From the NCBI GenBank assembly GCA_017631315.1, contig JAGBTN010000012.1, positions 186,001-250,000 of the forward strand: a stretch of DNA of 64,000 nt, given 5' to 3'. Position 1 is the stretch's first letter, and each line of letters starts with the position of its first letter. The position numbers and the translations under genes are program-made. Positions 23-51,687 of the stretch are shown in pieces. The notes under the pieces were generated by a model, which had not been told where the DNA came from, searched no databases, and was given only the letters and a program-made list of their open reading frames with translations. The DNA is from Bacteroidaceae bacterium. Its GTDB lineage: Bacteria > Bacteroidota > Bacteroidia > Bacteroidales > Bacteroidaceae.

Positions 23-301
23 TTACTTTTTACATTTGTTAGATAGAGCATACCAAGTGTCCGTTCCTGGAACATATGTGCATGTTTGACAATACCTAAC
101 TTGACAGCCGTCTTTTTCTGTAATAGTACTATAGCAAGTATACTCTTTTGTTGTACTTTCTTGTGTAGAAAGTGCTTCCACATTCTGGATTAGCAAGCTT
201 TTGTACTTACAAGCATTTGTCTCAAATGTCTTTTTGGCAACAGAAGTTGCGATGGCAACAGCTGCAATGCATGGCAGCATAAAAAGATTTCTCTTTTTCA
301 T
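23..301 (-). CDS. NVEALA-family small secreted peptide (NVEALS variant)
   Basis: A 92-residue protein starting with a lysine/arginine-rich n-region and a hydrophobic stretch (residues about 5-22), then the sequence LLIQNVEALS, then a mature part with several cysteines (CYSTITEKDGC, CQTC, C near the end). The NVEALS box is the hallmark of the Pfam NVEALA family, short peptides of Bacteroidales whose function is not established. A longer reading begins 27 nt upstream, but the start at MKKRNLF matches the sister peptide at 10089-10403, which shares the leader (PCI-AVAIAT, TNA, NVEALS). It lies downstream of the membrane-fusion gene, which suggests it is cargo or a co-regulated product of that exporter. 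The family call is firm; the role is inference. Confidence 0.85.
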   Translation of the reverse strand: MKKRNLFMLPCIAAVAIATSVAKKTFETNACKYKSLLIQNVEALSTQESTTKEYTCYSTITEKDGCQVRYCQTCTYVPGTDTWYALSNKCKK

Positions 302-359
302 AAAAATAATAATTAAAATGTTAAACATATCGGGCTACGCCCTTTTTATTTTCTATTTA

Positions 360-1454
360 TTAATTAACATTCACTATCACCTCTGTACCATCGGCAAGGT
401 TTAGATTGCCGGAGGTTATGACAATATCACCTTCCTTAATAGTTGTCTCTTTACGCTGACAGCCCGTGATGGCAAAGGAACTGATGTTGGAATGTACCAC
501 ATCGACGTAGGTCCAAACTGCCCTCCCCTCTTCCAAAAGGAAGATGACTTGATAGCCGTCCCGCTCTACAACAGCGTCCTTGGGGACGACAAACATGTGC
601 TGCATCTTTTCTTCTACGATAACACGCACATTCATACCATCCAATAAAGTGTTTCCCCTGTTACTGAGTTGTGCCTTGATTTTCACTAAGCCTTTGTCAT
701 CTACCAATGGATTTATCTCTGTCACTCTACCCTCGTATTGGATGCTGTCCTGCACAAAGGGCGTCACCTTGACTTTTTGACCAATGCGTACGCCTAAGAG
801 TTCTGCCTCCAGTATTCTGAATTCTACCTCAAAGTCCGAGTCATCTACCAACGTACAGACTTTGTCATTCTTCTGGAAACGCTTTGCTTCTAAGTCTGCT
901 ATTCTTCCGCTGAATGGGGCATACAGGTTGCATTCCTCCAGCGCCTTCTTGGCTGATTGCAGTTGAAACTTGGCTGAATAATAGCCAGACATCACTTCGG
1001 CACGTTCAATGACATCGGCAGGGACAGCATTCATGTCATTATACCCTAAGCTTATAAGCTTGTCTGTCAGTTCCACCTTCGCACGTTGCAGTTCATGCTC
1101 GGCCTTCTCCAGTTCACGCTGCCTGTCCTGCTTGTCCAATGTGGCAATCAATTTGCCTTTGCTTATGTGTTGCCCTTCCCTGACAAAGACTTCCGCAATG
1201 ATGCCTTGCCCATTGAAATTCAACTCACTCTTTGCCTTGGCACGAAGACGGCCATTGCATACGATTTGCTTGTTAAACTCTTTCTGATGCAGTACCATCG
1301 TATCTACATACGTTTCGCTCATTTGCTGTTGGTGCATCTCCATCCCGGAACCATCCTTGTTCTCTTCTTTGTTGGAGGTACATGCTGCCACCAGGATAAA
1401 CGCAGCTAACAAGTGTAAGGCTTTATTGCCCTTTTCTCTTATCATATTTTCCAT
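360..1454 (-). CDS. Membrane-fusion (HlyD/RND adaptor) lipoprotein
   Basis: A 364-residue periplasmic adaptor. The N-terminus has a short signal ending in a lipobox (LVAAC, Cys about residue 25). It is followed by a barrel-sandwich (biotinyl-lipoyl-like) half with the GLY/ALA-rich strand IIAEVFVREGQHISKGKLIATLD, a helical hairpin (about 110-170), the second lipoyl half (LYAPFSGRIADLEAKRFQ) and beta-barrel/membrane-proximal domains with the usual VVPKDAVVERDG segment. Such proteins link an inner-membrane pump (RND or ABC) to a TolC channel. It starts 3 nt after the TolC gene's stop, so they form one operon. The inner-membrane pump is not in the window and could lie to the left. Confidence 0.88.
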   Translation of the reverse strand: MENMIREKGNKALHLLAAFILVAACTSNKEENKDGSGMEMHQQQMSETYVDTMVLHQKEFNKQIVCNGRLRAKAKSELNFNGQGIIAEVFVREGQHISKGKLIATLDKQDRQRELEKAEHELQRAKVELTDKLISLGYNDMNAVPADVIERAEVMSGYYSAKFQLQSAKKALEECNLYAPFSGRIADLEAKRFQKNDKVCTLVDDSDFEVEFRILEAELLGVRIGQKVKVTPFVQDSIQYEGRVTEINPLVDDKGLVKIKAQLSNRGNTLLDGMNVRVIVEEKMQHMFVVPKDAVVERDGYQVIFLLEEGRAVWTYVDVVHSNISSFAITGCQRKETTIKEGDIVITSGNLNLADGTEVIVNVN

Positions 1455-1456
1455 TT

Positions 1457-2934
1457 TTATTTATTGTCTATTGCTTTGTCTATGTCAACCAAGATGTCCC
1501 TGTCTGCCGTCCAGTCATATAGTGTGGACTTTTGCAGACTGTAGTAGTCAGACCAAAAAGTATTGAGCTGACTGATATATTGTGTCTTGGCAGAAGTCAT
1601 TTCCTGCAGAGCAGTATTGAGGTCTGTCACGGAAACTGTGCCTGCTTCGTACCTGCGTCTCATGATGTCATAACGTTCCTCTGCGATCTCCTGTGCACGA
1701 AGGGCATTGCGACATTGTGCAGGCTGGGCATTGAACTGCATCACTTTCTTACGCAGCTCCTGAATATAATCCTGGTGCGTTTTTTCTTGTTGCGTCCTTA
1801 CAACTTCTAACTGAGCCTGCGCCATGCGGACACGACCTTTGCTTACGCCCCAGTCAAAGATAGGAAGGCGAAGCGTCAGACCTACAATCTCGTTGTCAAG
1901 TAGCTTCCTATATGCACCAGCAAAGTTGTCGGCTGTCTGCATGAAGCCTAATTCTCCGCTTAATGTCACTTGAAGACCCTTGTTTGCTTTGGCTTGAGCC
2001 AGAGTTTTTCTGCGTTAAGCATTTCCAAGCGCAGTTCTTTGGTGTGAGAGGAATTGGCGATAGCTTTCTGTAGTACCTCATCCATGCCGACAACGAGGTC
2101 TGGTACATTATAAGGTGGCACCAGTTCTGATGCTTCGTAATCTGTTACGCGCAAATATGAAAACAGATTATATTTGGCATCGTCCAAGGTGATACGATTG
2201 TTCCCCTCTGCTACACGGGCATTCAAAACGGACAGTTCCATCTGTAAGACTTCGCTTTTGGTGGTTGTACCTAATTCCAGACGCTTCTGTGCCATTGCAT
2301 ACAGTGTTTCCCTGTCTGCGAGGGTTGCCTTGCTTTGCTGATAGTTGGATTGTGCAAACAGGACATTGAAGAAGAGTGTTGTCACCCTGATAGCGATGTC
2401 CTGCATGGCAGAGGCATAGCGCTTCTGTGCTATCTCATATTCTAACGGCGCTGTCTTCTTTTGCCATTTCAGGGAGTTGAAAGAACGAAGAGGTTGGGTA
2501 TAGCTGACACGCAAAGGCTGAGAGTTATATGTCGTCTCTTTGTATGTGAACTGGTCCAGGCGGTGAAGATATGACATTAAAGAGACGGTACCGCCTGTTG
2601 CAGCAATCTGTTGATCGACAGACAACGTGAGACTGTTGCTCAGTGTGTTGTTGCTGACGTATGACAAGCGTCCGTCATCATAGTTACGGGTTTCCACAAG
2701 GGAGCGGTTATAGTTCATCAGACCGCCACTAAGGTTTATTGATGGAAGCAGCTCTGCCTTGAAGCTTCGATATGTCCAATAACTTGCAAGAAAGGAGAAA
2801 TGTGCCGATTTGGCATCCAAGGAATTCTCCTGAGCTATCTGTATGGCATTGCCGAGGGTAACTTGCTGGGCAAAAACGCTAGATGACAACAATAATGTCA
2901 TCAAAAAAGTTATTATATTATACCTTTTCTGCAT
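1457..2934 (-). pseudogene. TolC-family outer-membrane channel, frameshifted
   Basis: The N-terminal part (signal peptide with SSSVFAQQ cleavage region, then TolC helical repeats) is in one frame and the C-terminal part (second repeat, LPIFDWG motif) in another. Reading across the T5 run at 2005-2009 (A5 on the coding strand) with one extra A restores LNAEKTLAQAKANKGLQ joined to VTLSGELGF, which is the normal TolC sequence there. This is therefore a one-base deletion in a homopolymer: a real inactivating or phase-variable mutation, or a sequencing error. Intact length would be about 492 residues. The start at 2934 precedes a clean signal peptide (MQKRYN) and sits 28 nt after a consensus promoter. 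Confidence 0.88.
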
Positions 2935-2961
2935 ATTTATCATTTGTTTCGATTTCGTCTG

Positions 2962-2993
2962 CAAAGGTATGGTGTTCTGATAACATACACAAA
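2962..2993 (-). promoter_or_regulatory. Promoter of the TolC-adaptor operon
   Basis: On the minus strand TTTG (2990-2993), a 20-bp spacer and TACCTTTG (2962-2969) fit the Bacteroidales housekeeping promoter exactly. The initiation point would fall about 20 nt upstream of the chosen TolC start. This gives the exporter genes their own promoter, separate from the upstream cluster. Confidence 0.75.
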
Positions 2994-3177
2994 CGCCATC
3001 TGTCATACAAAAGTACATTTATACATAATATAACAAAAATTCATACTTTTGTATTACATTCAAACAAGATAGATGTTATATTAACCTTTCTGTACTATTG
3101 TACAACAATTTCGGTATAAGGCATATTGATATTTTCATTCATTCTCTCGTTTTTCTAGTGATTGTATGTCTCTCATA

Positions 3178-5142
3178 TTACCACCACACCTGTTTCCCGT
3201 TCTCATAGGTAAAGATTCTTTCTTCTGTACCTTTTGTGAGATCTCTTAGAAGATATAGTGCATTCTGTGGTACACCCTTATATTTCACAAACACATTTTT
3301 GGCACGTTTCCTTCCCATACTTACCCATTTATCGTTCCAATAAAAAAGCTCGTATTCATCACCTATTTCCACACTATTCCCATCTCCACGACCATAGTAG
3401 ATGAGGTGGTCAACTTTCATAGGCTTTCCAAGGTCCAAACCAGCCCAACAACCTTCACCGCGTGGTGCATCAAATGAAGTCAAGATGTTGCCATCAAACA
3501 CCGTCTCTTTCAGATGTTCTGGATTGTTATACCATGAACCATCTGTGCCGATTACCTGTCCTAGAAGTCTTGTCGTATCCCCTTTGGCATAAAACATCAC
3601 CTCTGCTATGCTACAGAATGTGGAATATCTGTTGTTGGTATAACGCCAATAGCGGCAAGGAGGTATGGAGTCGGGTATATTGACATGCTGGCCAGATGCT
3701 TTACCCTCTTGAATTCGATGTACAACATAGTATTTTTTGAAGTTTGCATCGTTGGAAGCCTGAAATTCACCGTCTTTCAGTCTAGGAACAAATTCATAAG
3801 TACGTTCCTTTGTGGGAAATTTCCTTGCAAGTTTCATTTCCATTTTCCTTTTCATATCAGGAATCTTTTTTCTCACCTTCCCATTATGGTCCAAAATAAA
3901 GGGCTCTGCTATCGGTTTCATCTGGGCATTAACGTATATTACAGGTAGATACATTGCATTCTCACCAACATCCTTGAAAGTCGCCTTGTTGTTCTTAATG
4001 GTTCCGTATGCCACAGGCACCCATTCCTGATTGTCAAACGCAAGTAAATAGGCATATTTGTTGGGGGTACTTTCAATCTTCAATGTTACATCACTGCATT
4101 TTATTATTCCTCTTGTAACATCACGAATGAAAACATTACGGAACGACTTTGGAACAAACTCTCCACTATTATTGATTCTTACAAGCTCTATATTAGGAGA
4201 ATAGGTGCGCCTATAGATTTTTGTCATGACTTCCTCCACGCTAGTCTGTTGACCTATCTGTCCAGTAATGCCATCAAACGGGATGTTCTTGCCATCATCA
4301 GAAAGAAGTACATTCCATGTATGTCCCAGACTACGCTTAGCCCACTGTGGAGTAAAGTGAACCATTACAGGTATACCATGACTACGAAGAATCGTTGTAG
4401 CCATAGATACATAATCATTACAACGTCCAAAGGGCAATTTAGCACGATATTCTGTTGGGATATTAGCATAACGAATGGGATTACCCATTTGGGGATGAAT
4501 AGAGTCTGCAAGAGTCTTGTTCAAATTCTTCACAGCAGCATAGGCAGAATTTCGCAGCTGGTCACAATACTCAAGTCCTGTAAGTTTTTCCGAAAGGAAT
4601 GTCTTCAGTCGAGATCTCCAGTTGTCCAAAGGTTGTAAATCATCTGCCTTATAAGGAAGGATCCATTCACAAAAGTCTTCAAAACATATGTGTTTAGCCC
4701 AAGGACCATGCTGCCAGTCATAAAAGGCTATATCTATATTCTGAATCAAATAATCTGCTGTTATTATTTGGCAATCCTGCACTATTTTCAAGCTGTCTAT
4801 CCCCTTTCTTTGTGCCACTCTGTCTATAGAGTCACGCATGGCATCATTGTTCCTGTCTTCCTTCATATTTTCAATTACAGAATCAACGGCAAGTGCATAC
4901 CTGTTGATGGCGGCAGTGTCAACGTATGAAAAGTGCCCTGGCATATATTTTATTAGGAATTTAGCCGCCTCCAACTTAAGAGAATCACCTGTATAATGAT
5001 CCAGCACTTTTTGCAGTTCAGCACGGTTAGGACCAGCCAACTCCAATGCCTGTTCCAACATAACTTCCTCTTCACTCTTCTGGCACGCAGGGAATAGTGT
5101 ACATAACAATACCAGAATTATCAAATAACTTTTCTTCTTCAT
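3178..5142 (-). CDS. Transglutaminase-like lipoprotein with discoidin-like C-terminus
   Basis: A 654-residue lipoprotein (lipobox LFPAC, Cys about 20). The central transglutaminase-like core shows the expected triad in order: Cys in FGRCNDYVSMA (about 238), His in LGHTWNV (about 273) and Asp in IPFDGITG (about 289). The C-terminal 150 residues resemble an F5/8-type (discoidin) carbohydrate-binding fold (YWRYTNN, AEVMFY, FDGN, WAGLDLGKP). Family members act as proteases, amidases or transglutaminases, so it could trim or crosslink a peptide at the cell surface. Its start overlaps the stop of the preceding gene (TAATG), so it ends a tightly coupled operon. The substrate is unknown; a role on NVEALS peptides is inference. 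Confidence 0.8.
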   Translation of the reverse strand: MKKKSYLIILVLLCTLFPACQKSEEEVMLEQALELAGPNRAELQKVLDHYTGDSLKLEAAKFLIKYMPGHFSYVDTAAINRYALAVDSVIENMKEDRNNDAMRDSIDRVAQRKGIDSLKIVQDCQIITADYLIQNIDIAFYDWQHGPWAKHICFEDFCEWILPYKADDLQPLDNWRSRLKTFLSEKLTGLEYCDQLRNSAYAAVKNLNKTLADSIHPQMGNPIRYANIPTEYRAKLPFGRCNDYVSMATTILRSHGIPVMVHFTPQWAKRSLGHTWNVLLSDDGKNIPFDGITGQIGQQTSVEEVMTKIYRRTYSPNIELVRINNSGEFVPKSFRNVFIRDVTRGIIKCSDVTLKIESTPNKYAYLLAFDNQEWVPVAYGTIKNNKATFKDVGENAMYLPVIYVNAQMKPIAEPFILDHNGKVRKKIPDMKRKMEMKLARKFPTKERTYEFVPRLKDGEFQASNDANFKKYYVVHRIQEGKASGQHVNIPDSIPPCRYWRYTNNRYSTFCSIAEVMFYAKGDTTRLLGQVIGTDGSWYNNPEHLKETVFDGNILTSFDAPRGEGCWAGLDLGKPMKVDHLIYYGRGDGNSVEIGDEYELFYWNDKWVSMGRKRAKNVFVKYKGVPQNALYLLRDLTKGTEERIFTYENGKQVWW

Positions 5143-6893
5143 TATTGTATTTCGTTTGTACCGAATTCAGTATAGATTAAAGATTTTGCCTCTTCTTTCA
5201 TCTGCTTCGTGGCTGGCGAAATAATTTTCTCATGGAAAGAAACAACCTTCTTGGCGTATTCTTTTGCTTTCTTGCTGTTTCCTGTCTCCTTGTAGAGTTG
5301 CATCAACAGATAGAGAGGGTATATGCGGTTTGGCATAATAGAAAAAGCTTTCTTGTAAGATTTCTCTGCAAGGTCCGAATAACCCATATCCTTGTAGTTG
5401 TTGCCCATAAGAACATAAAACATCGGATCAGCACTTACCAAAGTCCCTTGCCTAAGCATATCGTTACTGTCATTATATCTACCATGTGTACGTAGTGTCT
5501 TCCCAAAGTCAAAAAGGAAACGGGGATTATCGTACTCAAATGGCAATAATTCATAGTAATCTTTAAAAAAAGCTTCATTCACCATCCCTGCAAACATTTG
5601 ATAATCTCTATCAGCATTATAGCGTATCTGTAGCTGTTTTATAATCAGATAAGAAGGTAAAATCAGCAACAGTGATAATACAAACCACGCATATCGTACC
5701 CTACTGTCACTCTGTTGACTATGAACAGATGCCACCCAAGCTGCCACCATAACAAAGATTATTCTGTATGGCAATAATTCAAACGGGTAGGAGAACATGG
5801 AAAATATCAATAGAGATAGCATCCCATAGAATAATGGCTTACTATGTTGCCAAAGCAGAAACAACATGTAGCCTACCATGATAATGCAAAGAAGCATGCC
5901 AATAATGCCTTGTTCAACCAATACTTTCAGTAAGTCATTAAAGGCATAGTCTGTTACGCCGCCAGAAGCAAATAAAGCAGATGAAGGGTTATTAGCATAC
6001 AACTCTGTAATCCCGTTAGCACTAGCGTGTAAGAAGCCTCCAATTCCAACGCCTGTCCATGGATAGTGTAGCCATGTAGTCAGTGCTGATAGCCATATCA
6101 GAATACGCCCATCTGCAGAACCTTGCTTTATGAAGTAGAACAACACACACATTACTATGCACACCGCCCATACAAACCAGCGCCAAGGCCAATAGCTCTT
6201 CCTGAACATCCATAGCCCTACAATACCAAAAGAAATAAAAGCAGCTCTGCTCCATGTGGCAGGCAATAGCACAAACATTAGTCCTGTAGTTCCCATGATG
6301 ATGTGTTTCTGCCAGTTTTTTTCCACTTCTTGCATCCATGCCAGACCTATAACTGCTCCCAGCATCAGAAAGGCAGAGTAGGGACCTGGATTCTGGAATG
6401 TGCCTGTCAGTAAATACAAATAGTATCTGCTTGTGCCATTTAACATTTGGGAAAGTCCCAATCCTGCTTCATATACGCCACATACCAACAGCCCACCCAT
6501 AATCCATTTGGATGATAGCTTCCCATGTGCCATCAGACAACGCAAGCAGAAATACAGCAAAACCATCTCTATGGTCTTTAAGAATGCTGTGGCACAAGGA
6601 TACTCTGTACCTAACCATACTCGCATAACGTAGTACAGAGTACCAACGGCAACCAATACATCCAACCAGCCCCAGCTACCTTTCGCTTTCTCGCAGATCT
6701 TGGAGGGTATAAACCATAGCATTACAGCCATAGCCAGTATAACCATAATACCACACAATAGTCTTATGTCAGCCTCTGCCCAACGAACTTCCACGGGTGC
6801 TAAAGTCAGCCATAGCAACATAAATGGGCCAAGGATAATTGACAGAACCCTGGGCAGTCCTATTTCCTTACAAATTTTCGGTATCCTCTTCAC
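5142..6893 (-). CDS. Wzy/O-antigen-ligase-like membrane protein with TPRs
   Basis: A 583-residue protein with about ten to twelve hydrophobic segments through residue about 420. A Wzy_C/O-antigen ligase-type loop holds SADGRILIW, HYPWTGVGIGGF and a large periplasmic stretch. About 150 C-terminal residues have TPR-like helices (DPMFYVLMGNNYKDMGYSD, IYPLYLLMQLYKETG). Family members transfer or polymerise lipid-linked glycans, and some glycosylate proteins. It overlaps the signal peptidase gene by 26 nt. Its presence among peptide-processing genes suggests glycan transfer to an exported product, but nothing in the sequence proves the acceptor. Confidence 0.75.
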   Translation of the reverse strand: MKRIPKICKEIGLPRVLSIILGPFMLLWLTLAPVEVRWAEADIRLLCGIMVILAMAVMLWFIPSKICEKAKGSWGWLDVLVAVGTLYYVMRVWLGTEYPCATAFLKTIEMVLLYFCLRCLMAHGKLSSKWIMGGLLVCGVYEAGLGLSQMLNGTSRYYLYLLTGTFQNPGPYSAFLMLGAVIGLAWMQEVEKNWQKHIIMGTTGLMFVLLPATWSRAAFISFGIVGLWMFRKSYWPWRWFVWAVCIVMCVLFYFIKQGSADGRILIWLSALTTWLHYPWTGVGIGGFLHASANGITELYANNPSSALFASGGVTDYAFNDLLKVLVEQGIIGMLLCIIMVGYMLFLLWQHSKPLFYGMLSLLIFSMFSYPFELLPYRIIFVMVAAWVASVHSQQSDSRVRYAWFVLSLLLILPSYLIIKQLQIRYNADRDYQMFAGMVNEAFFKDYYELLPFEYDNPRFLFDFGKTLRTHGRYNDSNDMLRQGTLVSADPMFYVLMGNNYKDMGYSDLAEKSYKKAFSIMPNRIYPLYLLMQLYKETGNSKKAKEYAKKVVSFHEKIISPATKQMKEEAKSLIYTEFGTNEIQ

Positions 6894-7773
6894 AAGTTAC
6901 GTCTTTACATATTCTGTCAGAAATAAGTTCGTCTGTTCTCCTGTCCTTTGAATAGGAAATATGTGTTACCACACCTACAATATATTCTTCCGGAACGAGG
7001 CCCCAGTTTCTAGAGTCGTTGGAATCCATTACGTTGTCTCCCGCCATGAAATAGTAATTATGCTGGAAAGTATGACGCTTTAATGGCTTACCATCGCCAT
7101 ACACTATGTTCTTATCCCAATCCCATGATAAGGATTTTCCTGTTTCCCACTCTAAGTACATGCGGTAATAAGCTGCCATATATGGTGTAACAGCAACCAC
7201 ATCCCCCTTGCGCGGCACATAAACGGGAAGAAGATTCTTAATAGTCTGTTTTAGATGACCGTTATAAGGGAAAGCGCATGCTAATTCTCCAGGGAGGGAA
7301 GACTCTTCTATAGAACTGAGTTTTCTTTGTTCTTCTTCCACCCCCAACACGCCTTCATAATTGTTATTCTTGTAATACCCGTTATCTGACCAGATGGTAT
7401 CACCTGGCAATGCTATGCAACGCTTACAGAATACATTGTTAATTACAAAGCTGATATGCCAATTGTGCTGGGGATAGTTAAACACAACAATATCATTGTG
7501 TTTGATTCGTCTTGTACCCCGTGTGCGCAAACACTTGAGTTCACCGCCCTCGGAATTAAAGTCGAAATCCTTATAAATGCGAGCACCCATAATAGTCTTG
7601 TCCACAATTACCCTATCACCCGGCACCAGTGTGGGGCGCATGGAGTCTGTAGGGATAATAAACTGGTCAAATAAGAATGCACGGCACAGCAGCCACATAC
7701 CATACAGGCATATGGTAACGGTAGCAACGCCAAAAGAGATAGCCGAAATTCTATACACCCACTTCATCAGCAT
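6868..7773 (-). CDS. lepB: Signal peptidase I (cluster-dedicated)
   Basis: A 301-residue type I signal peptidase with one N-terminal membrane segment. The serine box is PTDSMRPTLVPGD (Ser about 42), followed by the lysine box CKRCIALPGDTI (Lys about 118), and the conserved terminal box is AGDNVMDSNDSRNWG. These are the S26 catalytic dyad and flanking motifs, so it should be active. A chromosome normally has a housekeeping copy elsewhere. This copy, overlapped on both sides by cluster genes, is probably specialised for leader removal from cluster-encoded exports. A start two codons later (MKWVYR) is possible. Confidence 0.92.
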   Translation of the reverse strand: MLMKWVYRISAISFGVATVTICLYGMWLLCRAFLFDQFIIPTDSMRPTLVPGDRVIVDKTIMGARIYKDFDFNSEGGELKCLRTRGTRRIKHNDIVVFNYPQHNWHISFVINNVFCKRCIALPGDTIWSDNGYYKNNNYEGVLGVEEEQRKLSSIEESSLPGELACAFPYNGHLKQTIKNLLPVYVPRKGDVVAVTPYMAAYYRMYLEWETGKSLSWDWDKNIVYGDGKPLKRHTFQHNYYFMAGDNVMDSNDSRNWGLVPEEYIVGVVTHISYSKDRRTDELISDRICKDVTCEEDTENL

Positions 7774-8228
7774 GTTTGTTTCCTTTCTTGTTTACATACA
7801 GACAGCACACAGGCAATAATTGCGAGTATGAGTAATACTACATTCTTGTAGAAAGACTCAGTAGGCGTGAGGTGAATCACCTCTCCAAAACATCCACAAG
7901 ACTCTACCTGCCCATATAGGCTCACCAGATTTAGATATGTAATGTAGGTAAAATACCCCAATACCAGGGTGTATACCATCACTATATATTTCCTTATTCT
8001 GGGCATAAATGCAGCTACACCTAATAATAACTCTGCAGTGCAAATGGCATAGGCCAGTAGCATCCCATGCCCACACAATGCATCAAGTCCCAGAAAGGCA
8101 CAGAAATCATCTATGGTCAAAGCAAAAGACCTTAGCCCTATCCACTTGAAGATGCTGGAAAGAATAAAAATAACACCAAGTAACCATGTGGTATAATGGC
8201 ATGCTTTTCCATAAAGTTTTGTGTACAT
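7767..8228 (-). CDS. MauE/DoxX-like redox membrane protein
   Basis: A 153-residue protein with four hydrophobic segments and the motif SCGCFGE (about 110-116). That Cys-Gly-Cys motif marks MauE-type membrane proteins, which are thought to pass electrons for periplasmic disulfide formation or reduction. It overlaps the signal peptidase start by 7 nt and follows a thioredoxin-like gene by 10 nt. Together they make a plausible redox pair for cysteine-containing peptides such as the NVEALS products. The exact redox direction cannot be read from sequence. Confidence 0.8.
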   Translation of the reverse strand: MYTKLYGKACHYTTWLLGVIFILSSIFKWIGLRSFALTIDDFCAFLGLDALCGHGMLLAYAICTAELLLGVAAFMPRIRKYIVMVYTLVLGYFTYITYLNLVSLYGQVESCGCFGEVIHLTPTESFYKNVVLLILAIIACVLSVCKQERKQTC

Positions 8229-8238
8229 ACTAAAGATT

Positions 8239-8820
8239 TTATTCTCCTTTTATTATTCTTTTATAAATATTTCGTAATTTTTCATTATATAATGGGTTTC
8301 CTACGCATAGAATCTCATTATTTTCGTTTAAAAGAAATACATGAAATAGCTGATTATCAGGAATTTGTTTATTTGACCTCTGAAAAACATTGGCTGTATC
8401 TAAATAAATAGGCCAATCTACTGAAGATTCCTCAACAATTTGCCGCACTTCCTGTATTTTCTTCTGTGAAGGAGAGAATATAAATACGAGTCTTGCACTA
8501 CGACAGCTGTCAAAGAAGAAATCCTGAGTCACTTCTTCCCAATTTGATATTCGGGAGACATTACAAGACGTACATTCTGTAGAGTCCGTAAACACTACCA
8601 GAGTGTACTTAGATATAGAATCCCTACCAACTAAATCATTGTATGTAATCACTGAGTTTGGAAAGCATTCCATATAAGAAAGACTCAGATTAATCTTTGT
8701 CGAAAGCATACTTGAAAGTATAGTTTCAACAGCATCGTTTCTTCTTATACAGGAGAAGATAAGCGCAATTGTAACTGTTAAAATTAGTACAACTATAATT
8801 AACCTATTCCTTAAATTCAT
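8239..8820 (-). CDS. Membrane-anchored thioredoxin-like protein
   Basis: A 193-residue protein with an N-terminal hydrophobic segment that ends in Cys (ALIFSC, a possible lipobox). A thioredoxin-like domain has TLVVFTDSTECTSCNV, where CTSC sits at the usual CxxC place after the first strand, and the late strand LLNENNEILCVGNP, typical of redoxins that accompany beta-propeller lipoproteins in Bacteroidota. It lies 13 nt after the propeller gene and 10 nt before the MauE-like gene. Low GC and rapid divergence make the subfamily uncertain. Oxidoreductase activity toward secreted cysteines is inferred. Confidence 0.65.
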   Translation of the reverse strand: MNLRNRLIIVVLILTVTIALIFSCIRRNDAVETILSSMLSTKINLSLSYMECFPNSVITYNDLVGRDSISKYTLVVFTDSTECTSCNVSRISNWEEVTQDFFFDSCRSARLVFIFSPSQKKIQEVRQIVEESSVDWPIYLDTANVFQRSNKQIPDNQLFHVFLLNENNEILCVGNPLYNEKLRNIYKRIIKGE

Positions 8821-8833
8821 AACATATAATAGA

Positions 8834-9976
8834 CTACTTTTTCAATGACAATAAATCATACTTATAGAGTTTATGTAGCTCAATGTTCCAGCCATAAAGT
8901 ATGCTTCTCTGATTATCCAAAGATAACCGATGAACAGGTTGTTCTAGTTTTATCTTACGAACAAGGTTCCCGTCCCAATCAAAAACATGAATAATATTAT
9001 ACCCCTTCTCAATTGGAATGTCATTTTGAGGGGAACCTATCCATAATGCATATATGTATTTATTATCAGTGACTACTCCACAATAACAAAACAATGAGTT
9101 TTCCATATCTGTCAAGAAAACATCTTCGTCCTGCGTATTCTTCATTCTATACCCACTTACTTTCCCTGTTTTAATATTCAATATGTTAATCTGCGGCAAG
9201 CGAGTCATAACTTCCACAAGTTTACTCCGATCGGGTTTTAGCGAAGAAAAAACATTAAAGAAGTTTGATGGTAACACCTTAGATTCTTTGTTATCAATAG
9301 GATGATCAAAAATATTAATCTCAGTTAACAACTTATTATCTTTAAGCGTTCTTATTTGATAATATGAATTTATTATTCTATCTTCAGATGATAAAGTTAC
9401 TGATGGGAAATATAAGAGTACAGAATCTTCCCCGATTATATATTGATTACAGAATGCAACGGGGGATTTATCCCGCCATGAATATAAAATAATGTTATCG
9501 TAAATTGTGGAGTCTTTTCTTATTGACTCTGTTATGTTCCATATCAAAAGTTTAGATTCATTTGGAGCAAATAACAACCCCTTCTTTTCATTTTGATTCT
9601 GATATATTTGAAAGATTGGTGATAATGACAAAAATTCTTTATGTCCACGACCTCGTGAACAGAATGAACCAATTTTTCCTCTCGTACCAAATTTTACAAT
9701 ATCAAAAGCCTTATCTCCATTATCGTTATAGAATATAGCCATCGAATCTATAACGTAAAAAAAAGATGAGTATATGCTATCTAACTCTATTTCCGTAGAA
9801 AGCAAGGAAACCTCAGATGCATCATCGATATAAAACTCTAGATTACCCTGGAAATTGTTATTTTTCGTACAAGAAAAAAAGAAAATGGAAATGAATAATA
9901 GCAGATATAAGTTTTTTACGGTGCGGTTGGAATCGTGTATTCTCCATAATAGCACATATGCGTCAGTACTTTTCAT
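8834..9976 (-). CDS. 6-bladed beta-propeller lipoprotein (BF3164/TolB-like)
   Basis: A 380-residue protein. A hydrophobic segment ends in FFFSC (lipobox), and the propeller contains the characteristic early motif FCSRGRGHKEF and repeated blade strands with W-D/NG turns (VFDWDGNLVRKI near the end). Such lipoproteins are common next to NVEALA genes in Bacteroidales; their function is unknown and they may bind a partner or peptide. The n-region is unusually long (about 22 residues), but no closer ATG or GTG start exists in frame. It is the first gene after the NVEALS peptide, separated from it by a strong hairpin. Confidence 0.75.
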   Translation of the reverse strand: MKSTDAYVLLWRIHDSNRTVKNLYLLLFISIFFFSCTKNNNFQGNLEFYIDDASEVSLLSTEIELDSIYSSFFYVIDSMAIFYNDNGDKAFDIVKFGTRGKIGSFCSRGRGHKEFLSLSPIFQIYQNQNEKKGLLFAPNESKLLIWNITESIRKDSTIYDNIILYSWRDKSPVAFCNQYIIGEDSVLLYFPSVTLSSEDRIINSYYQIRTLKDNKLLTEINIFDHPIDNKESKVLPSNFFNVFSSLKPDRSKLVEVMTRLPQINILNIKTGKVSGYRMKNTQDEDVFLTDMENSLFCYCGVVTDNKYIYALWIGSPQNDIPIEKGYNIIHVFDWDGNLVRKIKLEQPVHRLSLDNQRSILYGWNIELHKLYKYDLLSLKK

Positions 9977-10010
9977 TGTCTATGCAGAGTGGACTATCAA
10001 TTGAAACATT

Positions 10011-10059
10011 AAAGCATTTTGTGCTCTTAAGAACACCTTCTTATAGCACAAAATGCTTT
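10011..10059 (-). terminator. Intercistronic hairpin between NVEALS gene and its downstream operon
   Basis: A perfect 15-bp inverted repeat, AAAGCATTTTGTGCT (10011-10025) and its complement (10045-10059), with a 19-nt loop. On the minus strand it is followed by only a weak T stretch. The position, just after the peptide gene and before the machinery genes, fits an attenuator or transcript-stabilising structure that makes the peptide mRNA more abundant than the rest. Confidence 0.65.
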
Positions 10060-10088
10060 TGATTATTATAACTACATAATAAAACAAA

Positions 10089-10403
10089 TCAACTTTTTCT
10101 GCATTTGCCGCTTGCAATCTCATAAAGCAGTGTCTGAGAACTGGGACATTTTGTTATACGATTAGGTTTTGTTCCAACTGGACATTCTAGAAGATTCTTT
10201 GGCATTTCTGGGCTTCCGCCACTGAACACATCAAAATAGCAGTCATCTAAGTCTTCCCATTCATCATCACTCAACGCCTCTACATTTGTCATTAGCAAGG
10301 CATTACTTTCACTTGCATTTGTCTTCAGTGTTTTTGTTCCTATATATGTTGCGATGGCAACTGCTGTAATGCAGGGTAGCATTAATAAACTTTTTCTTTT
10401 CAT
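10089..10403 (-). CDS. NVEALA-family small secreted peptide (NVEALS variant)
   Basis: A 104-residue protein with a basic N-terminus, a hydrophobic leader (LPCITAVAIATYIG), a TNA site, then LLMTNVEALS and an acidic mature part with four cysteines (DDCYF, LECPV, TKCPS, GKCRKS). It shares the leader and NVEALS box with the 23-301 peptide but not the mature sequence, as expected for a conserved export or processing signal followed by variable cargo. Cleavage after TNA by the cluster's signal peptidase I is plausible, leaving NVEALS near the mature N-terminus. Function unknown; bacteriocin, signal or structural roles are all possible. Confidence 0.87.
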   Translation of the reverse strand: MKRKSLLMLPCITAVAIATYIGTKTLKTNASESNALLMTNVEALSDDEWEDLDDCYFDVFSGGSPEMPKNLLECPVGTKPNRITKCPSSQTLLYEIASGKCRKS

Positions 10404-10485
10404 AATAATTAATTTAAAAGTTTTCCTACTCGTAAAGCTTTTCGGATTCCGCTCCTTTGTTTACCCTGTCTGGTCAGGAGGAAGG

Positions 10486-10538
10486 GTGTGTCAAAATACT
10501 ATGATTATTATAATCCGTTGTGGTTAATTATGACACAC
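10486..10538. repeat. Inverted repeat upstream of the NVEALS gene
   Basis: GTGTGTCA at 10486-10493 and TGACACAC at 10531-10538 form an inverted repeat around a 37-nt AT-rich loop in the leader between the DUF3244-like gene and the peptide gene. It may be a weak terminator or a binding site. I see no promoter of the usual type inside it. Confidence 0.4.
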
Positions 10539-10554
10539 CTCCATGTTTCAAAGA

Positions 10555-10953
10555 TTAATATATCTCAAACTCGCCTACATATATGAGGGTATCTATCTCA
10601 AGTGTTAAACTATATGTGCCCTCATCTAATGTACCCAAGTAAATGGAAGTCTCACCTTGCTCTGAAAAAGTGACATTGCCATTACATACTTCTAGTTCAT
10701 CTACATCATATATATTATAGGAACATGTCAGTTCTGATGGAGAATACAACAGAAGACTATCAGAAGTCTCATTCAAATATACTTCTATAGTTGCCTCCAT
10801 GCCTGAACCTAGGGATCTTGATGATCCCGGCATCCCAGCGTTTATTTTAGGCTCCTTTAAGTGGAGTAACACAGGAGTCATCCCCGGTACAAGTGTAAAG
10901 CTTTGCATCACGAAGACGAGCAAAATCGCCAAAATACTTAATAACTTTTTCAT
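10555..10953 (-). CDS. DUF3244-like secreted protein
   Basis: A 132-residue protein with a signal peptide (KKLLSILAILLVFVMQSFTLV). The small beta-rich domain (IEVYLNETSDSLLLYSP, YNIYDVDELEVCNGNVTF, GTLDEGTYSLTLEI) is of the DUF3244 type, a Bacteroidales family of exported proteins with an Ig/BACON-like fold that often occurs beside peptide or regulator genes. It is the first gene after a consensus promoter at 11000-11031 and lies 151 nt before the NVEALS gene, so they may be cotranscribed. No function is known. Confidence 0.6.
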   Translation of the reverse strand: MKKLLSILAILLVFVMQSFTLVPGMTPVLLHLKEPKINAGMPGSSRSLGSGMEATIEVYLNETSDSLLLYSPSELTCSYNIYDVDELEVCNGNVTFSEQGETSIYLGTLDEGTYSLTLEIDTLIYVGEFEIY

Positions 10954-10999
10954 AATCTCTTTAGTTTATAGTTAATAATAGATTTATAGTATTCTGGTG

Positions 11000-11031
11000 C
11001 AAAATTAGCGGTTCTTAATCAAGCCACCAAA
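11000..11031 (-). promoter_or_regulatory. Promoter of the NVEALS cluster
   Basis: On the minus strand TTTG (11028-11031), a 20-bp spacer and TAATTTTG (11000-11007) form an exact Bacteroidales promoter about 47 nt upstream of the DUF3244-like start. It is the only strong promoter I see ahead of the 10.95 to 3.18 kb minus-strand run, and it faces away from the regulator gene at 11284. Confidence 0.75.
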
Positions 11032-11076
11032 CATTTCTTGTTTCTTTGTGTTTCTCGATGTGTTATTTTTTTATTA

Positions 11077-11086
11077 CCCCCCCCCC
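11077..11086. repeat. C10 homopolymer in the divergent intergenic region
   Basis: Ten consecutive C residues in an otherwise AT-rich region between the cluster promoter and the divergent regulator gene, about 46 bp upstream of the -33 box. Long C runs are prone to slippage and can tune promoter spacing. Confidence 0.7.
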
Positions 11087-11283
11087 ACTAAAACACACTT
11101 ATCTTATTGTTTTGTTGTGCTTTACAATGCTTTCATAAAGTTTTTAATTATGCATATAATGAAACAAATGAAACGTCATTAGAGAAACATCAAGAAACAG
11201 CCTTTTGCAAAATTCGGACAAAATTATTTCATTTCTCAAATTATTTTCGCATCTTTGCAATCAGAATTGAAATAAAAGCATCT

Positions 11284-13044
11284 ATGAACAATTATTATTC
11301 TCGGTGTGTTTGCGCACTCACCATTCTATTACTAATGTCTTGCACCAATTCTAATAAAAAGCTATTAGACAGGATGGAGCAGATAAAAGAGAGTGGGAAC
11401 GAGAACCCACAGCAAGCACTTGCCATGCTTGACTCCATTGAGATTGAGATTAGGGATAAGAACAACTACGTCAAAAACAAATATGACCTGCTCCGAATCA
11501 GACTCAATGATAAAGCATATAACTTGCCAATCTCAGACATTATGATTAAGCAATTAATACCATATTTCGAGGGAAGGGAGTCTATTTCGGAAAAGCAGGA
11601 AGTTTATTTTTATGCCGGTAGCACCTACCGTGACCTACAGGATACACCGAGAGCATTGGAATACTTTTTTAAGTCGCTGGACTGTGCTCTTGATAATAGC
11701 GATGATTGCGATCCTATTATGCTACGCAACACATATTCCAATCTCAGCTACTTGTATTATACTATAAAAGACTATACAAATGCCCTTCAAATGGGAATAA
11801 AGGAATTGGAGAGTTGCAGACAGACAAAAACTGATGTTGTGTTGCCCCTTATACATATAGGGGCAATATATCATGCTTTGGACAGTGTGCAATGTACAGA
11901 AGCAGCATTAGATTCTGCATACACTCATATCATACAATCTGGAGACATATCTCGATATCAAGAGTCACTCGTCTTTCTGCTATATCATTATTCTTATTTA
12001 AAAAAGACACAAAAGGCAAAGAAGTGTATTAAACTTATAAGAAGCAATCCGCTTGTAGAGTTTAATGCTAATTCTTGTATGGCTTTTGCTTGGTATTATA
12101 AAGCATTGGAAAAGAACGATTCGGCAATCATTTTCCTTAAACGAGTCCTTGAAGATGGAACAGATATCAACAACATGTACGATGCCGCAAAATACCTTTT
12201 TTTCATGCACAACAAAAAGGGCGATGTCCCAAATGCCTGCAAATATGCAGAAGCATACTTGCAATTAAGCGATTCCTTAGATTTTGGGAAACGTCAGGAA
12301 CTGGCAGCGACAGTTAACAACCAATTTAAATATCATTTGGACCAAAAGAAAGAGCAGAAGTTGAAAGACGAGAAGGAAAGATACAAAAGCACCCTCCTTA
12401 TCGTGTCTTTTATAACACTGCTACTGACAAGTATTGGCTACATCTTACATATAAAAAAAAGAAACAAACATTTGAAAGTCATTGCTGGGCTTTCATCAGA
12501 ATTACAACGTATTTCCGATAATGACAAACAACTTCGTGAAGACATTAAAAAGAAAGAGAAAGAATTAACTAAATCCAGAAAATCATTAGAGAATACTTCA
12601 AATGAATTGAATAATGTGAAACAAGAACTTCAACGTGTGAACAATGAATTAACAGAGTACAACGAAGCCCTTAAAGAAAAAGAGGAACAACTGGCTGAAA
12701 GGATGGAACAAAACAAGTCTTTCATCAAGCTTCTACACCAGTCAGAACTTGAAGGCAAGGCAGAGGATGTCATACATGCCATTAGACAATCTTCCACAGG
12801 AAGGAAGAACATGGAATCTGCTGATTGGGAACAACTCTTTAAGGCCGTTGATGAACTACATCCAACATTCAAGGATAGACTATTGAAAGAGCTGGGTAAC
12901 TTCACAGAGGACCAGAAACGCGTCTGCTACCTTATGCGAATAGGTTTATCCAAACCGCAGATTCAAAACATGACCAACCTAGCCCGTGTCACCATCTGGC
13001 GATGGGCTAAGAAATATGATTGGGTAGTTACATCGGAAGACTGA
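11284..13044 (+). CDS. Membrane-anchored TPR sensor/HTH transcription regulator
   Basis: A 586-residue protein. The start at 11284 gives a lipoprotein-like signal (TILLLMSC). TPR helices span about 40-350 (QQALAMLDSIE, YFYAGSTYRDLQDTPRALEYF, YSNLSYLYYTIKDYTNALQ), a transmembrane segment follows (about 368-388, LLIVSFITLLLTSIGYIL), then a coiled coil (about 395-480), and a C-terminal helix-turn-helix (about 540-586, VCYLMRIGLSKPQIQNMTNL, VTIWRWAKKY). The layout puts the TPRs in the periplasm and the HTH in the cytoplasm, a one-protein signalling design common in Bacteroidota. It is divergent from the NVEALS cluster and is its likely regulator, perhaps sensing the exported peptide. A promoter-like CATCTTTG lies at 11250-11257. 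Confidence 0.82.
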   Translation: MNNYYSRCVCALTILLLMSCTNSNKKLLDRMEQIKESGNENPQQALAMLDSIEIEIRDKNNYVKNKYDLLRIRLNDKAYNLPISDIMIKQLIPYFEGRESISEKQEVYFYAGSTYRDLQDTPRALEYFFKSLDCALDNSDDCDPIMLRNTYSNLSYLYYTIKDYTNALQMGIKELESCRQTKTDVVLPLIHIGAIYHALDSVQCTEAALDSAYTHIIQSGDISRYQESLVFLLYHYSYLKKTQKAKKCIKLIRSNPLVEFNANSCMAFAWYYKALEKNDSAIIFLKRVLEDGTDINNMYDAAKYLFFMHNKKGDVPNACKYAEAYLQLSDSLDFGKRQELAATVNNQFKYHLDQKKEQKLKDEKERYKSTLLIVSFITLLLTSIGYILHIKKRNKHLKVIAGLSSELQRISDNDKQLREDIKKKEKELTKSRKSLENTSNELNNVKQELQRVNNELTEYNEALKEKEEQLAERMEQNKSFIKLLHQSELEGKAEDVIHAIRQSSTGRKNMESADWEQLFKAVDELHPTFKDRLLKELGNFTEDQKRVCYLMRIGLSKPQIQNMTNLARVTIWRWAKKYDWVVTSED

Positions 13045-13215: not shown

Positions 13216-13632
13216 TTACCACTTCCCCCACAAAAGGTTGCCGTCAGACGCTTGCCCTTCTGCCTCAATGTTTAAGATCGTATGACGTGAATTATTGTAA
13301 AGGGTAATATTGGCTTCGCCGTTCTCATCCAACTGAAGATTTGGGTTCCAATAGAGTGTCCTGCGATAATCGGTCGGTTCGGGAGGTGTCTGTACAGAGT
13401 AGTCGGGGCTGTAGAACTTGGCAGGATATGAGAATCCTTCAAGAATATAGCGGCGGTCGCGATAAATCGGACGCATGCTGTTATCGTAGAAAGGATAAAT
13501 CATTATGCGCGTCTCGGGTCTGTTTGCTCCCTTGTAACGGTCACTGCCTTCCAGCCGAGGCTGATAATCTGTATATACGGCATATGTCATTAGTTTTCTG
13601 AATCTTAGAGAACGGTCAATAACATATTGCAC
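13216..13632 (-). pseudogene. C-terminal fragment of an MG2/plug-type outer-membrane protein
   Basis: The last about 138 residues of a much larger protein: PPEPTDYRRTLYWNPNLQ, LDENGEANITLYNNS and ILNIEAEGQASDG are the typical end of the Bacteroidota alpha-2-macroglobulin/TonB-plug-domain proteins (usually over 700 residues). No upstream continuation is present; the sequence before it is non-homologous and AT-rich. It is a truncated remnant, possibly cut when neighbouring DNA was gained or lost. Confidence 0.75.
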
Positions 13633-13740
13633 AATTCTAAAGAAACAGAGACAGAAACAGAGAGAAACAAGCTTGGAGCACTAATGATGGAATAATTTTA
13701 TCCAGTCTTTTTACCAATGACCAGAGATTTGCTTCGGAGG

Positions 13741-14163
13741 CTATTGGTCATCTGTCCATGAGATGATGTCGCATGACCTGGCTTCATACAACCTTACCAG
13801 TTGAATTTTTGTATATAAAGAAGGTAAAGATGCGTCTTCCATCACGCGCACATGGATGAATGTGGGATTTTGGTGGATGATTATCATGTCTTTATTCTTG
13901 CTTATCTCTTCTCTATTAATGATTATATATATTTTTTCATTGGCAGAATAAGTGAAATTGAAGTACTACCAAAGATAGTATTTGACAATATTTTTTTCCA
14001 ATTTTAACAATAGCATCTCGTTGGAAGGAAAACCAAATGGGATACTTTCAAACATTATACCTAAATTTGTAGGCAACATGCACTTGCTGGTTAACTCTAT
14101 TTTTTGAGAAAATGAAAGCCTCCTCAAAATGACTTGAATGTTTCTTTCGTATTTACATGTGGA
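13741..14163 (-). pseudogene. Degraded ORF with one internal stop
   Basis: A minus-strand frame of 141 codons stays open except for one TAG at 13966-13968. It reads like protein on both sides: upstream IELTSKCMLPTNLGIMFES and PFGFPSNEMLLLKLEKN; downstream YFNFTYSANEKIYIII, NPTFIHVRVMEDASLPSLY and RLYEARSCDIISW. There is no good start codon near 14163. I do not recognise the family. Together with the truncated gene at 13216-13632 it marks this stretch as a graveyard at the edge of the mobile element. The rest of 13633-14335 shows nothing I can support. Confidence 0.4.
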
Positions 14164-14335
14164 TTATTTATGTTTTGTTGCAAAATACGATTTTATTCCT
14201 CTGCTAACATATTATAATGTTGTTATGCAAGAAGTAGAAAGAAAATCATAGACAGTATATAAAGATTAAATAATGTGTACTAAAGTTTCGTCCAATAGTG
14301 ATGACGAAACAATTATTGTTTTCTATTCTGCTTAT

Positions 14336-14363
14336 AGTATGATAATTCCCCGATAATCATACT
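14336..14363. promoter_or_regulatory. AGTATGAT palindrome before the left operon
   Basis: AGTATGAT (14336-14343) and ATCATACT (14356-14363) form a perfect 8-bp inverted repeat with a 12-bp centre, about 70 bp upstream of the operon promoter. The same octamer recurs three times in the divergent region at 37.9-38.0 kb beside a recombinase-like regulator gene, so it is a candidate operator. Confidence 0.5.
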
Positions 14364-14433
14364 TTAAGATTAAATTAGCCTAAAAGGATTGTTGTGCCGA
14401 GATGTGATTCCTTTTTGTGAGAAAAGGATGCGC

Positions 14434-14441
14434 TAACTTTG
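14434..14441 (+). promoter_or_regulatory. Promoter of the 14.5-29.4 kb operon
   Basis: TAACTTTG matches the -7 element; TTTG at 14414-14417 lies 16 bp upstream, slightly closer than the usual 19-21 bp. The first start codon is 38 nt downstream. All genes to 29413 are on the plus strand with short gaps or overlaps, so this likely drives one long transcript. Confidence 0.6.
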
Positions 14442-14479
14442 CGTCGCGAAACATGTAATCACATTAAAACGAGCACAAC

Positions 14480-15250: not shown

Positions 15251-15283
15251 CTGAAGTTAAAATTGAAAAATGAAAAGAGAAAA

Positions 15284-15508
15284 ATGGCAGAGATAAAATT
15301 CTATCCCGAAGACGAACTGGTACAGAAGTACGTCAGTGGCGAGTTCAACATGCTCGACGTGGTGAACCACCATTCCGACGAGTGGCAGGACGAATACCTC
15401 GACTACTGTGCAGCCCACGACCTTGACATCACCCCCGAGAGTGCAGAGCAATTCGTCGAAGCCAAGGGCGAGGAGTTCGCTGCCGCCCTGGAGCGAGGCG
15501 ATGTGTAA
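15284..15508 (+). CDS. Small acidic protein of unknown function
   Basis: 74 residues, strongly acidic (FYPEDELVQKYVSGEFNML, ITPESAEQFVEAKGEEFAA). A start 21 nt upstream is also possible; I chose the ATG at 15284 because the extra residues are only lysine/arginine-rich leader. It lies 33 nt after the previous gene and 18 nt before the next, with the same codon usage, so it is very likely real. No family recognised; similar small acidic proteins occur beside DUF4099 genes. Confidence 0.6.
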   Translation: MAEIKFYPEDELVQKYVSGEFNMLDVVNHHSDEWQDEYLDYCAAHDLDITPESAEQFVEAKGEEFAAALERGDV

Positions 15509-15526
15509 CCCATAAACAACATCATT

Positions 15527-17203: not shown

Positions 17204-17278
17204 GATTGCAATCCTACCGAGATATGGGGAGGGCAGTGCCCTGCCCGATAGAGGGAAGGACGATAAGACAAGGACGGG

Positions 17279-19813: not shown

Positions 19814-19867
19814 AGAAATAAAGAATAAAGAACAAAGAATAAAGAGTGAAAAGTAAAAAATGATGCC

Positions 19868-20545: not shown

Positions 20546-20573
20546 ATCGTAAAAAGACAAATAGTAAAAAAAT

Positions 20574-21257: not shown

Positions 21258-21305
21258 CAGCTGGCGACTAAATGGTAAATAGTAATTTGTCAAATTGTAA
21301 ATGAC

Positions 21306-23889: not shown

Positions 23890-23920
23890 ACGACATATTC
23901 ATCCATAAAACAGAATTGCA

Positions 23921-51610: not shown

Positions 51611-51687
51611 CTGTTTTTGGCAACTTAATGACCTATTCGGGTTATACTTTTATTGACTACCCAAAAAGTCATCAATTTTGCTCTCTG

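Follow-up and report, generated by a model that had tools for sequence, protein, structure and literature searches.

What is a small secreted peptide for when its leader is conserved, its core is hypervariable and its gene lies within a set of processing and export genes? The question is posed by proteins of the Pfam family NVEALA (PF14055), which have a name and, to our knowledge, no known function. Two of their genes lie in the stretch analyzed here, 64,000 nucleotides (nt) of a Bacteroidaceae bacterium (assembly GCA_017631315.1; contig JAGBTN010000012.1, C12 below, positions 186001-250000; "the window" throughout), whose source genome is 2.68 Mb long and 87% complete. We conclude that the cluster around them is probably a member of a widespread polymorphic system of peptide maturation and export in Bacteroidales, with a beta-propeller lipoprotein as the cognate partner of the peptide. 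Judged by sequence, what marks this system is a leader/core boundary, a usual propeller partner, co-segregation of core and propeller, exchange of cassettes and conserved gene clustering. The open-licence literature in PubMed Central yielded no paper on the system, a scope that leaves subscription papers and bioRxiv outside and a published account possible; within it the word NVEALA was absent, and PF14055 occurred only in papers whose titles concern malaria parasites or an enzyme-profile method.

The cluster and its genes

Along the minus strand, after a divergent gene for a protein with tetratricopeptide repeats (TPR) and a helix-turn-helix (HTH)-like end, the order is a DUF3244-like gene, NVEALA peptide 1, a propeller, a thioredoxin-like protein, MauE, signal peptidase I, Wzy_C-TPR, a transglutaminase-like lipoprotein, TolC, an RND (resistance-nodulation-division) adaptor and NVEALA peptide 2. 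The cluster then runs past the window edge into a further propeller-family gene and a pair of AcrB-type pumps. A first-pass annotation of the letters alone had listed most of these neighbours and had overlooked the propeller at 8834-9976, the most constant neighbour of the peptide. The main features are:

10089-10403, minus strand: NVEALA-type precursor peptide 1; NVEALS box at 10286-10269, core from 10268, four cysteines.
8834-9976, minus strand: six-bladed beta-propeller lipoprotein, partner of peptide 1 (PF15869, 49.4 against a cut-off of 29.2).
8239-8820, minus strand: thioredoxin-like protein with a CTSC motif, possibly a lipoprotein.
7767-8228, minus strand: MauE-like membrane redox protein (PF07291, 60 bits against a cut-off of 27).
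6868-7773, minus strand: putatively dedicated signal peptidase I of about 300 amino acids (aa), Ser/Lys aligned with E. coli signal peptidase I.
5142-6893, minus strand: Wzy_C (O-antigen ligase-like) membrane protein with C-terminal TPR.
3178-5142, minus strand: transglutaminase-fold lipoprotein with a C-terminal F5/8C carbohydrate-binding-like domain; conserved C241 and H274.
1457-3018, minus strand: TolC-type outer-membrane channel in two frames (1966-3018 and 1457-1969), with OEP matches in both halves.
360-1454, minus strand: RND-type periplasmic adaptor (TIGR01730, 151 bits against a cut-off of 94.9).
23-301, minus strand: NVEALA-type precursor peptide 2; leader to residue 45, NVEALS box at 184-167, core from 166, five cysteines.
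1-19, continuing to C12:184886 outside the window, minus strand: 5' end of a second propeller-family lipoprotein gene, assigned by family clustering only, with no Pfam match at 1e-3.
C12:181767-184868 and C12:178424-181750, outside the window: two RND pump genes, AcrB-type PF00873 in both.

Precursor peptides and the cut site

The two window peptides score 24.5 and 22.7 bits against PF14055, both under the curated cut-off of 27. Their leader segments are 55% identical, the NVEAL box lies about 40 residues from the start in both and their cores differ, in agreement with the earlier description of a common leader and NVEALS box with different mature parts. An iterated model built from 36 stretches fetched around Pfam hits found 72 open reading frames (ORFs; the window and some overlap repeats counted), and with 80 later loci added the set held 138 distinct motif-bearing sequences, seven motif-less hits being set aside. 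The search pattern fixed positions -6 to -2 relative to the proposed cut (A or S only at -3) and left -1 unconstrained. In this set N occupied -6 in 137 sequences, E -4 in 132, A -3 in 137 and L -2 in 132; position -1 was A, S, T or G in 135 of 138, and E stood at +3 in 80. Cores had a median length of 47 aa and a cysteine content of 7.7%. Four cysteines was the commonest count (69 of 135 cores), with even numbers in 101, odd in 33 and none in one. A single nearly invariant column, a cysteine, emerged from 64 aligned cores, and a scan of 64 of the 132 listed cores pointed to no known core family, four families receiving one stray Pfam hit each.

The boundary between leader and core was located with 49 pairs of sequences with at least 70% leader identity and unrelated cores. 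Identity at -3, -2 and -1 was 1.00, 1.00 and 0.80, and at +1 to +4 it was 0.33, 0.22, 0.63 and 0.18; these pairs were selected on leader similarity and on dissimilarity from +5 on, the exact position of the drop not being selected, and 35 of them lie within one locus and are not independent. P. massiliensis alone has four precursors with a near-identical leader and unrelated cores. The collapse of leader identity right at NVEAL[AST], at a site of A-x-A type, fits a dedicated signal peptidase cutting there. The mature peptide had earlier been placed after TNA. A strict A-x-A site near the hydrophobic stretch was not enriched, however (29 of 131 leaders, against 42.5 in shuffled sequences), whereas the NVEAL site is near-invariant; together with the identity collapse this favours the other boundary, and the mature peptide probably starts after NVEAL[AST] rather than after TNA.

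Homogenization of leaders within a genome was considered and set aside: leaders showed a within-genome excess of similarity of 0.091 over all taxa (reached in 0 of 1000 shuffles), yet none within the genus, and over all taxa cores showed 0.0038 (143 of 1000) and propellers 0.011 (0 of 1000). As the effect is lacking within the genus and propellers show an excess too, it may be mere ancestry. One locus of Prevotella aff. ruminicola Tc2-24 (L105) carries seven labelled NVEALA genes with a near-identical leader and different cores, five of them consecutive with no labelled propeller between.

The propeller partner and its co-segregation with the core

Downstream of 125 of the 138 NVEALA genes, within 600 nt and on the same strand, lies a gene encoding 250 aa or more, and 120 of these partners match propeller profiles; four of the 13 NVEALA genes lacking such a partner lie at a stretch edge. 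Ten downstream partners were scanned, seven matching PF17170, PF15869 or PF13970 and three matching no family. Seen from the other side, 197 propellers have an NVEALA gene upstream in 122 cases, the motif only in five and a stretch edge in four.

The 125 core-propeller pairs (120 after removal of duplicate propellers) were used to follow core and propeller together. Where a similar core existed in another genome (raw score at least 60), its partner propeller was among the five best-ranked in 50 of 57 cases, against about 2.5 expected. The result held at leader similarity below 0.3 (43 of 46; about 2.5 expected), whereas choosing the partner by leader instead of core brought the propeller into the top five in just 18 of 120. 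Across all pairs the Pearson correlation of core and propeller is 0.55, carried by few similar pairs.

A comparison of two genomes, G331 and G332 (22 NVEALA genes compared), gives a closer view. Seven distinct propellers are common to both at 57% identity or more, five of them with their own core, one of these five cases being out of frame in G331. The other two propellers, one in each direction, are more than 90% identical to NVEALA-paired ones and lack the cognate core; the stretches cover every NVEALA hit of the leader-profile search, and both genomes are incomplete. These two reciprocal coreless propellers look like orphan immunity genes, a likeness read from two cases in incomplete genomes. 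Among 61 orphan propellers, 12 are at least 35% identical over 250 aa to an NVEALA-paired propeller of another locus. A variable peptide with a cognate neighbouring gene follows the pattern of bacteriocin and immunity genes, as a pattern only and with export as a prediction.

Processing and export genes

The private signal peptidase I, MauE, Wzy-TPR protein, transglutaminase lipoprotein and TolC/adaptor genes named by the first-pass annotation are present. The signal peptidase scores 98 bits against TIGR02227 (cut-off 47), and its PTDSM and KRCIALPGD segments align with E. coli signal peptidase I, giving S44 and K117 (our count) as the Ser/Lys pair. The Wzy-like protein scores 46 against Wzy_C (cut-off 31.7) in addition to its TPR, with a weak PDB sequence match to 7tpg (E 0.0077). 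For the transglutaminase core the score is 24.9 against a cut-off of 23, plus F5/8C; C241 and H274 are invariant in 24 sequences, and a fold search over the multidomain model returned transglutaminase matches at low TM only. The thioredoxin-like label fared less evenly: the window protein has the CTSC motif, and CxxC occurs in 52 of 59 ORFs of its family in the 80 loci described below, but neither Pfam nor NCBIfam gave a thioredoxin-type match for it, and of ten proteins scanned (nine of this family and a redoxin-annotated plasmid gene) three matched Redoxin, Thioredoxin_8 or AhpC-TSA, all below cut-off.

The export genes listed earlier, TolC and adaptor, stand and are incomplete. Adaptor, outer-membrane channel and AcrB-type pump form an RND tripartite set in one operon that lies partly beyond the window. 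The TolC gene is split near 1966 in the window; a relative (L072) has an intact copy in one frame, and the split may be either real or an assembly fault.

These clades were compared in 20 genomes, 11 with and nine without NVEALA, a set unmatched for ancestry. The 300-aa signal peptidase clade occurred in eight of the 11 and none of the nine, and the transglutaminase clade (at least 70 bits) in 10 of 11 and none of nine. Another signal peptidase type, with open frames of 459-549 aa, was present in all 20 and is presumably the housekeeping enzyme. One genome lacking the 300-aa clade (G074) has longer signal peptidase-like genes adjoining its NVEALA genes. The RND clade seemed a perfect marker here (11 of 11 against 0 of 9), a status undone by the wider counts given next.

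Conservation across loci and genomes

Bacteroidales and Sphingobacteriales loci were fetched blind to the peptide, through the Wzy-like protein (the best 80 of 230 relatives, two coming from bins with the labels Tepidanaerobacteraceae and Tissierellia), and compared with 20 control stretches of 20 kb, using profiles built from NVEALA loci. NVEALA was found in 50 of the 80 loci against one of the 20 controls, any propeller in 59 against 2, signal peptidase in 66 against 0, the thioredoxin-like family in 45 against 0, transglutaminase in 38 against 0, RND in 43 against 2, TolC in 47 against 1 and adaptor in 46 against 3. MauE, at 22 against 1, is not constant. The sole control stretch with NVEALA also has Wzy and a propeller and is thus another copy of the system. 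By contig comparison nine of the 80 loci overlap the profile-building loci, all with NVEALA; excluding them leaves 41 of 71. In 40 of the 80 loci the Wzy ORF starts at most 60 nt from the point where the signal peptidase ORF stops, and by ORF extents the two overlap by up to 120 nt in 30. Recurrence of the gene set across Bacteroidales exceeds chance, with controls low; peptide, signal peptidase, thioredoxin-like, Wzy-like, transglutaminase and TolC/adaptor genes turn up as a group in several Bacteroidales families as well as in Sphingobacteriales. Gene order kept in relatives, on which the earlier proposal had staked itself, is therefore borne out.

Pfam NVEALA hits occurred in 9 of 139 genus genomes and 9 of 198 order genomes; the leader profile at E <= 1e-8 marked 8 of the 139 as NVEALA-positive. 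In the genus, a comparison matched for ancestry, Wzy at 130 bits or more was found in seven of the eight positive and none of the 131 negative genomes (Fisher 4.7e-11); across the order, with a threshold of 200 bits, it was found in six of eight positive and six of 190 negative genomes. The marker value depends on the threshold: the best Wzy score in a negative genus genome is 122.7 bits, just below the 130 cut, bit and E-value thresholds were picked after the lists were seen, and Wzy at E <= 0.001 is much commoner (18 of 139 genus genomes, 11 of them negative, and 122 of 198 order genomes). The clade of the first pump (E <= 1e-90) was present in all eight positive genomes in both sets, and in 7 of 131 negative genus genomes and 24 of 190 negative order genomes. 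Borderline NVEALA hits in four genomes (G013, G062, G055 and G108; E 6e-7 to 8e-4) are each followed by a propeller with RND genes near and carry motif variants including NSEALA, DIEALG and NAEALT; distant members thus escape the profile. Further weak hits (G030, G059, G122, G127 and G174) may be chance matches.

Cassette exchange and plasmid carriage

The operon of one genome, G223, is 94-97% identical to that of the window, and its segment between the adaptor and first-pump genes encodes another peptide, another propeller and a thioredoxin-like protein. Leader identity is about 57-87% per 30-base block, against 94-97% in the flanking alignments, which places the break near the adaptor 3' end and the start of the first-pump gene. 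A break inside the leader, suggested by a first alignment, was dropped on a closer one.

Wzy matches were found in 5 of 72,556 plasmids and in none of 50,697 phage records. A P. vulgatus plasmid is annotated in the order NVEALA, six-bladed propeller, redoxin, lepB, O-antigen ligase, hypothetical, transglutaminase, propeller, with two further NVEALA-propeller or NVEALA-lipoprotein pairs nearby. A P. dorei plasmid (L270) has the same set with transposase genes replacing part of the redoxin gene; these genes, one of them an IS1380-like element, separate lepB from the shortened gene at the redoxin position, a difference from the P. vulgatus plasmid. B. finegoldii plasmid 9 (L269) has O-antigen ligase, TlpA and discoidin genes with a fulvocin C-related cysteine-rich protein (NF033852); no NVEALA was found on it, and it is perhaps a sister system with another precursor type. 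In B. thetaiotaomicron, the tables of PMC10434189 list BT0662 as O-antigen ligase, BT0663 as hypothetical, BT0664 as six-bladed propeller, BT0667 as lepB and BT0669 as RND adaptor, annotations that by themselves suggest that this model strain carries the system.

Neighbouring genes

Two further genes adjoin the cluster within the window:

10555-10953, minus strand: small secreted DUF3244-like protein (16.8 bits, under the cut-off of 25), accessory and seldom conserved.
11272-13044, plus strand: divergent TPR, membrane-span and coiled-coil protein with an HTH-like C-terminus (HTH by eye), not a constant part.

Relatives of the latter were found by phmmer in 3 of the 80 loci, and a looser cluster in 6. 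None of seven scanned core proteins matched PADLOC anti-phage models, and three weak matches fell on the coiled-coil part of the TPR/HTH protein. On the right flank, 13216-26485 holds a DUF4099 gene (14480-15250) and a run of genes that by eye resembles a mobile or conjugative element and adjoins the cluster. To the left of the pump genes (L003:876-4423) are genes for an HSP90-like ATPase protein and for an HTH-containing Schlafen/AlbA_2 protein. The sole tRNA gene found in the window is tRNA-Ser (tga) at 51687-51772. In L143, L145 and L151, two uncharacterised families (c6 and c10) lie side by side near the Wzy gene; c6 is response-regulator-like by eye.

Interpretation

Each precursor joins a hypervariable cysteine-rich core to a conserved leader of Sec type, the end of which reads L-L-x-x-N-[VI]-E-A-L-[AST]. 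The dedicated signal peptidase I is likely to cut after NVEAL[AST], and the thioredoxin-like protein, with or without MauE, would probably form or edit the core disulfides. The RND-TolC set may then export the peptide out of the periplasm, a step for which we see the case as evenly balanced. Modification or attachment of the peptide by the Wzy-like protein and the transglutaminase is possible and rather more doubtful. The propeller may bind its own peptide, most likely protecting the producer, with the peptides acting as bacteriocin-like weapons, a role we hold to be only slightly short of even. The earlier annotation had proposed maturation, export and sensing as one pathway. A single predicted pathway of maturation and export is well supported by co-occurrence; sensing is unsupported, as the TPR/HTH regulator is not constant and has relatives in only 3 to 6 of 80 loci.

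Several results weigh against this account. A median of 24 residues separates the NVEAL site from the hydrophobic stretch before it, an unusually long distance for signal peptidase I, and 104 of 131 leaders have a loosely defined ordinary cut site closer to the membrane. NVEALA went undetected in 30 of the 80 loci, though some hold diverged candidates, and 66 of the 197 propellers have no detected peptide upstream. Rank correlation of core and propeller over all pairs is about zero (0.014; 0.006 given the leader), so that co-segregation is visible only among recognizable relatives, and plain linkage of two adjacent genes would produce the same co-segregation. The orphan-propeller pattern consists of two clear cases only. 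Two genomes (G108 and G121) have NVEALA and lack both the 300-aa signal peptidase clade and a strong Wzy. The 24 negative order genomes with the first-pump clade make the pump associated rather than exclusive, and the RND clade occurs without NVEALA or propeller in stretches from G263, G210, G275 and G121.

How else might these genes be read? The mature peptide could be a pheromone, with the propeller lipoprotein as receptor and the TPR/HTH protein as output, in keeping with the co-segregation of core and propeller and with a TPR/HTH gene adjoining some clusters, the window's among them. That family is confined to the few loci noted above, however, no signalling domain was found in the scanned propellers and the 17 NVEALA matches in one genome (G332) alone would demand many outputs, so we consider signalling unlikely. 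To a surface complex, in which the peptide is a structural subunit of the propeller as in methylamine dehydrogenase and the pair a variable adhesin or binding module, we give a similarly low probability. Its part types are alike (a small cysteine-rich protein, a propeller, MauE and a thioredoxin-like protein), and 36 aligned propellers show no conserved catalytic residue, with G336 alone invariant and C36, G109 and E114 nearly so; against it stand the two reciprocal orphan propellers, the associated pump set and a MauE found in merely 22 of 80 loci.

The same near-absence of invariant residues speaks against the propeller as a core-specific maturation enzyme or chaperone for a natural product of other use, as do the propellers with no detected peptide. 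An enzymatic role was rejected as a candidate on generic propeller folds with no conserved site, the higher-scoring structural matches being DUF4221 and NHL domains, and we regard the maturation reading, chaperone included, as a little less likely than either of the preceding two. Least probable is adjacency by chance, with NVEALA-propeller cassettes and an RND efflux operon gathered in a loose island. Cassettes lacking signal peptidase, Wzy or transglutaminase in three 20-kb stretches (L061, L084 and L087), the RND clade without detected NVEALA and the mobile-looking genes on the right flank would all suit it; the order nevertheless recurs over many taxa with low controls, and in 40 of the 80 loci the signal peptidase and Wzy genes are nearly contiguous.

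We thus favour the polymorphic maturation and export system with its cognate propeller. For its end use, antagonism with propeller immunity is a moderate inference from sequence. Tentatively, and below even probability, the peptides could form a large undescribed class of weapons whose precursors cross the inner membrane by Sec and are cut at NVEAL[AST] by a private signal peptidase I; they would bear disulfides and perhaps sugars added through a Wzy-like ligase, be exported by RND-TolC, be matched by propeller immunity, be swapped between strains as two-gene cassettes and be carried on plasmids of human gut Phocaeicola. If so, competition among gut strains would have in them a large source that is still little explored; should the peptides serve as signals or surface parts instead, they would still represent a new route to maturing and exporting hypervariable peptides in Gram-negative bacteria. 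The conserved propeller pairing and the processing set make the role of NVEALA directly testable in culturable gut Bacteroides and Phocaeicola.

Comparison with known systems

The Pfam family NVEALA shares the leader and the NVEAL motif with our precursors, but as a peptide model of 62 positions it holds no propeller pairing, hypervariable core or processing genes. The fulvocin C-related protein of B. finegoldii plasmid 9 is likewise cysteine-rich and accompanied by TlpA, discoidin and O-antigen ligase genes; it is longer and lacks the NVEALA leader, and phmmer searches of the 80 Wzy loci and the four remaining plasmid loci brought up no relative. Maturation of methylamine dehydrogenase (MauA/B/D/E) similarly combines a small disulfide-rich protein, a propeller, MauE and a thioredoxin-like helper, although a cofactor enzyme such as MauA/B is unlikely here because the 64 aligned cores have a single nearly invariant column, a cysteine.

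The WaaL/PglL O-antigen ligase superfamily resembles our Wzy-like protein through a Wzy_C match above cut-off, glycan transfer being putative here, and differs in that ours carries a TPR fusion and its gene is often coupled to that of a signal peptidase. A signal peptidase I kept next to its own substrate is familiar from SipW-TasA type operons; here the presumed substrate is another one, with a long conserved motif ahead of the proposed cut. Class II microcins and bacteroidetocins have double-glycine leaders and a peptidase-ABC transporter. They would share with the present system a conserved leader cut by a dedicated protease, a variable core, an adaptor/TolC exporter and a protection gene, whereas the system described here would use a Sec-type leader, a signal peptidase I and an RND pump.

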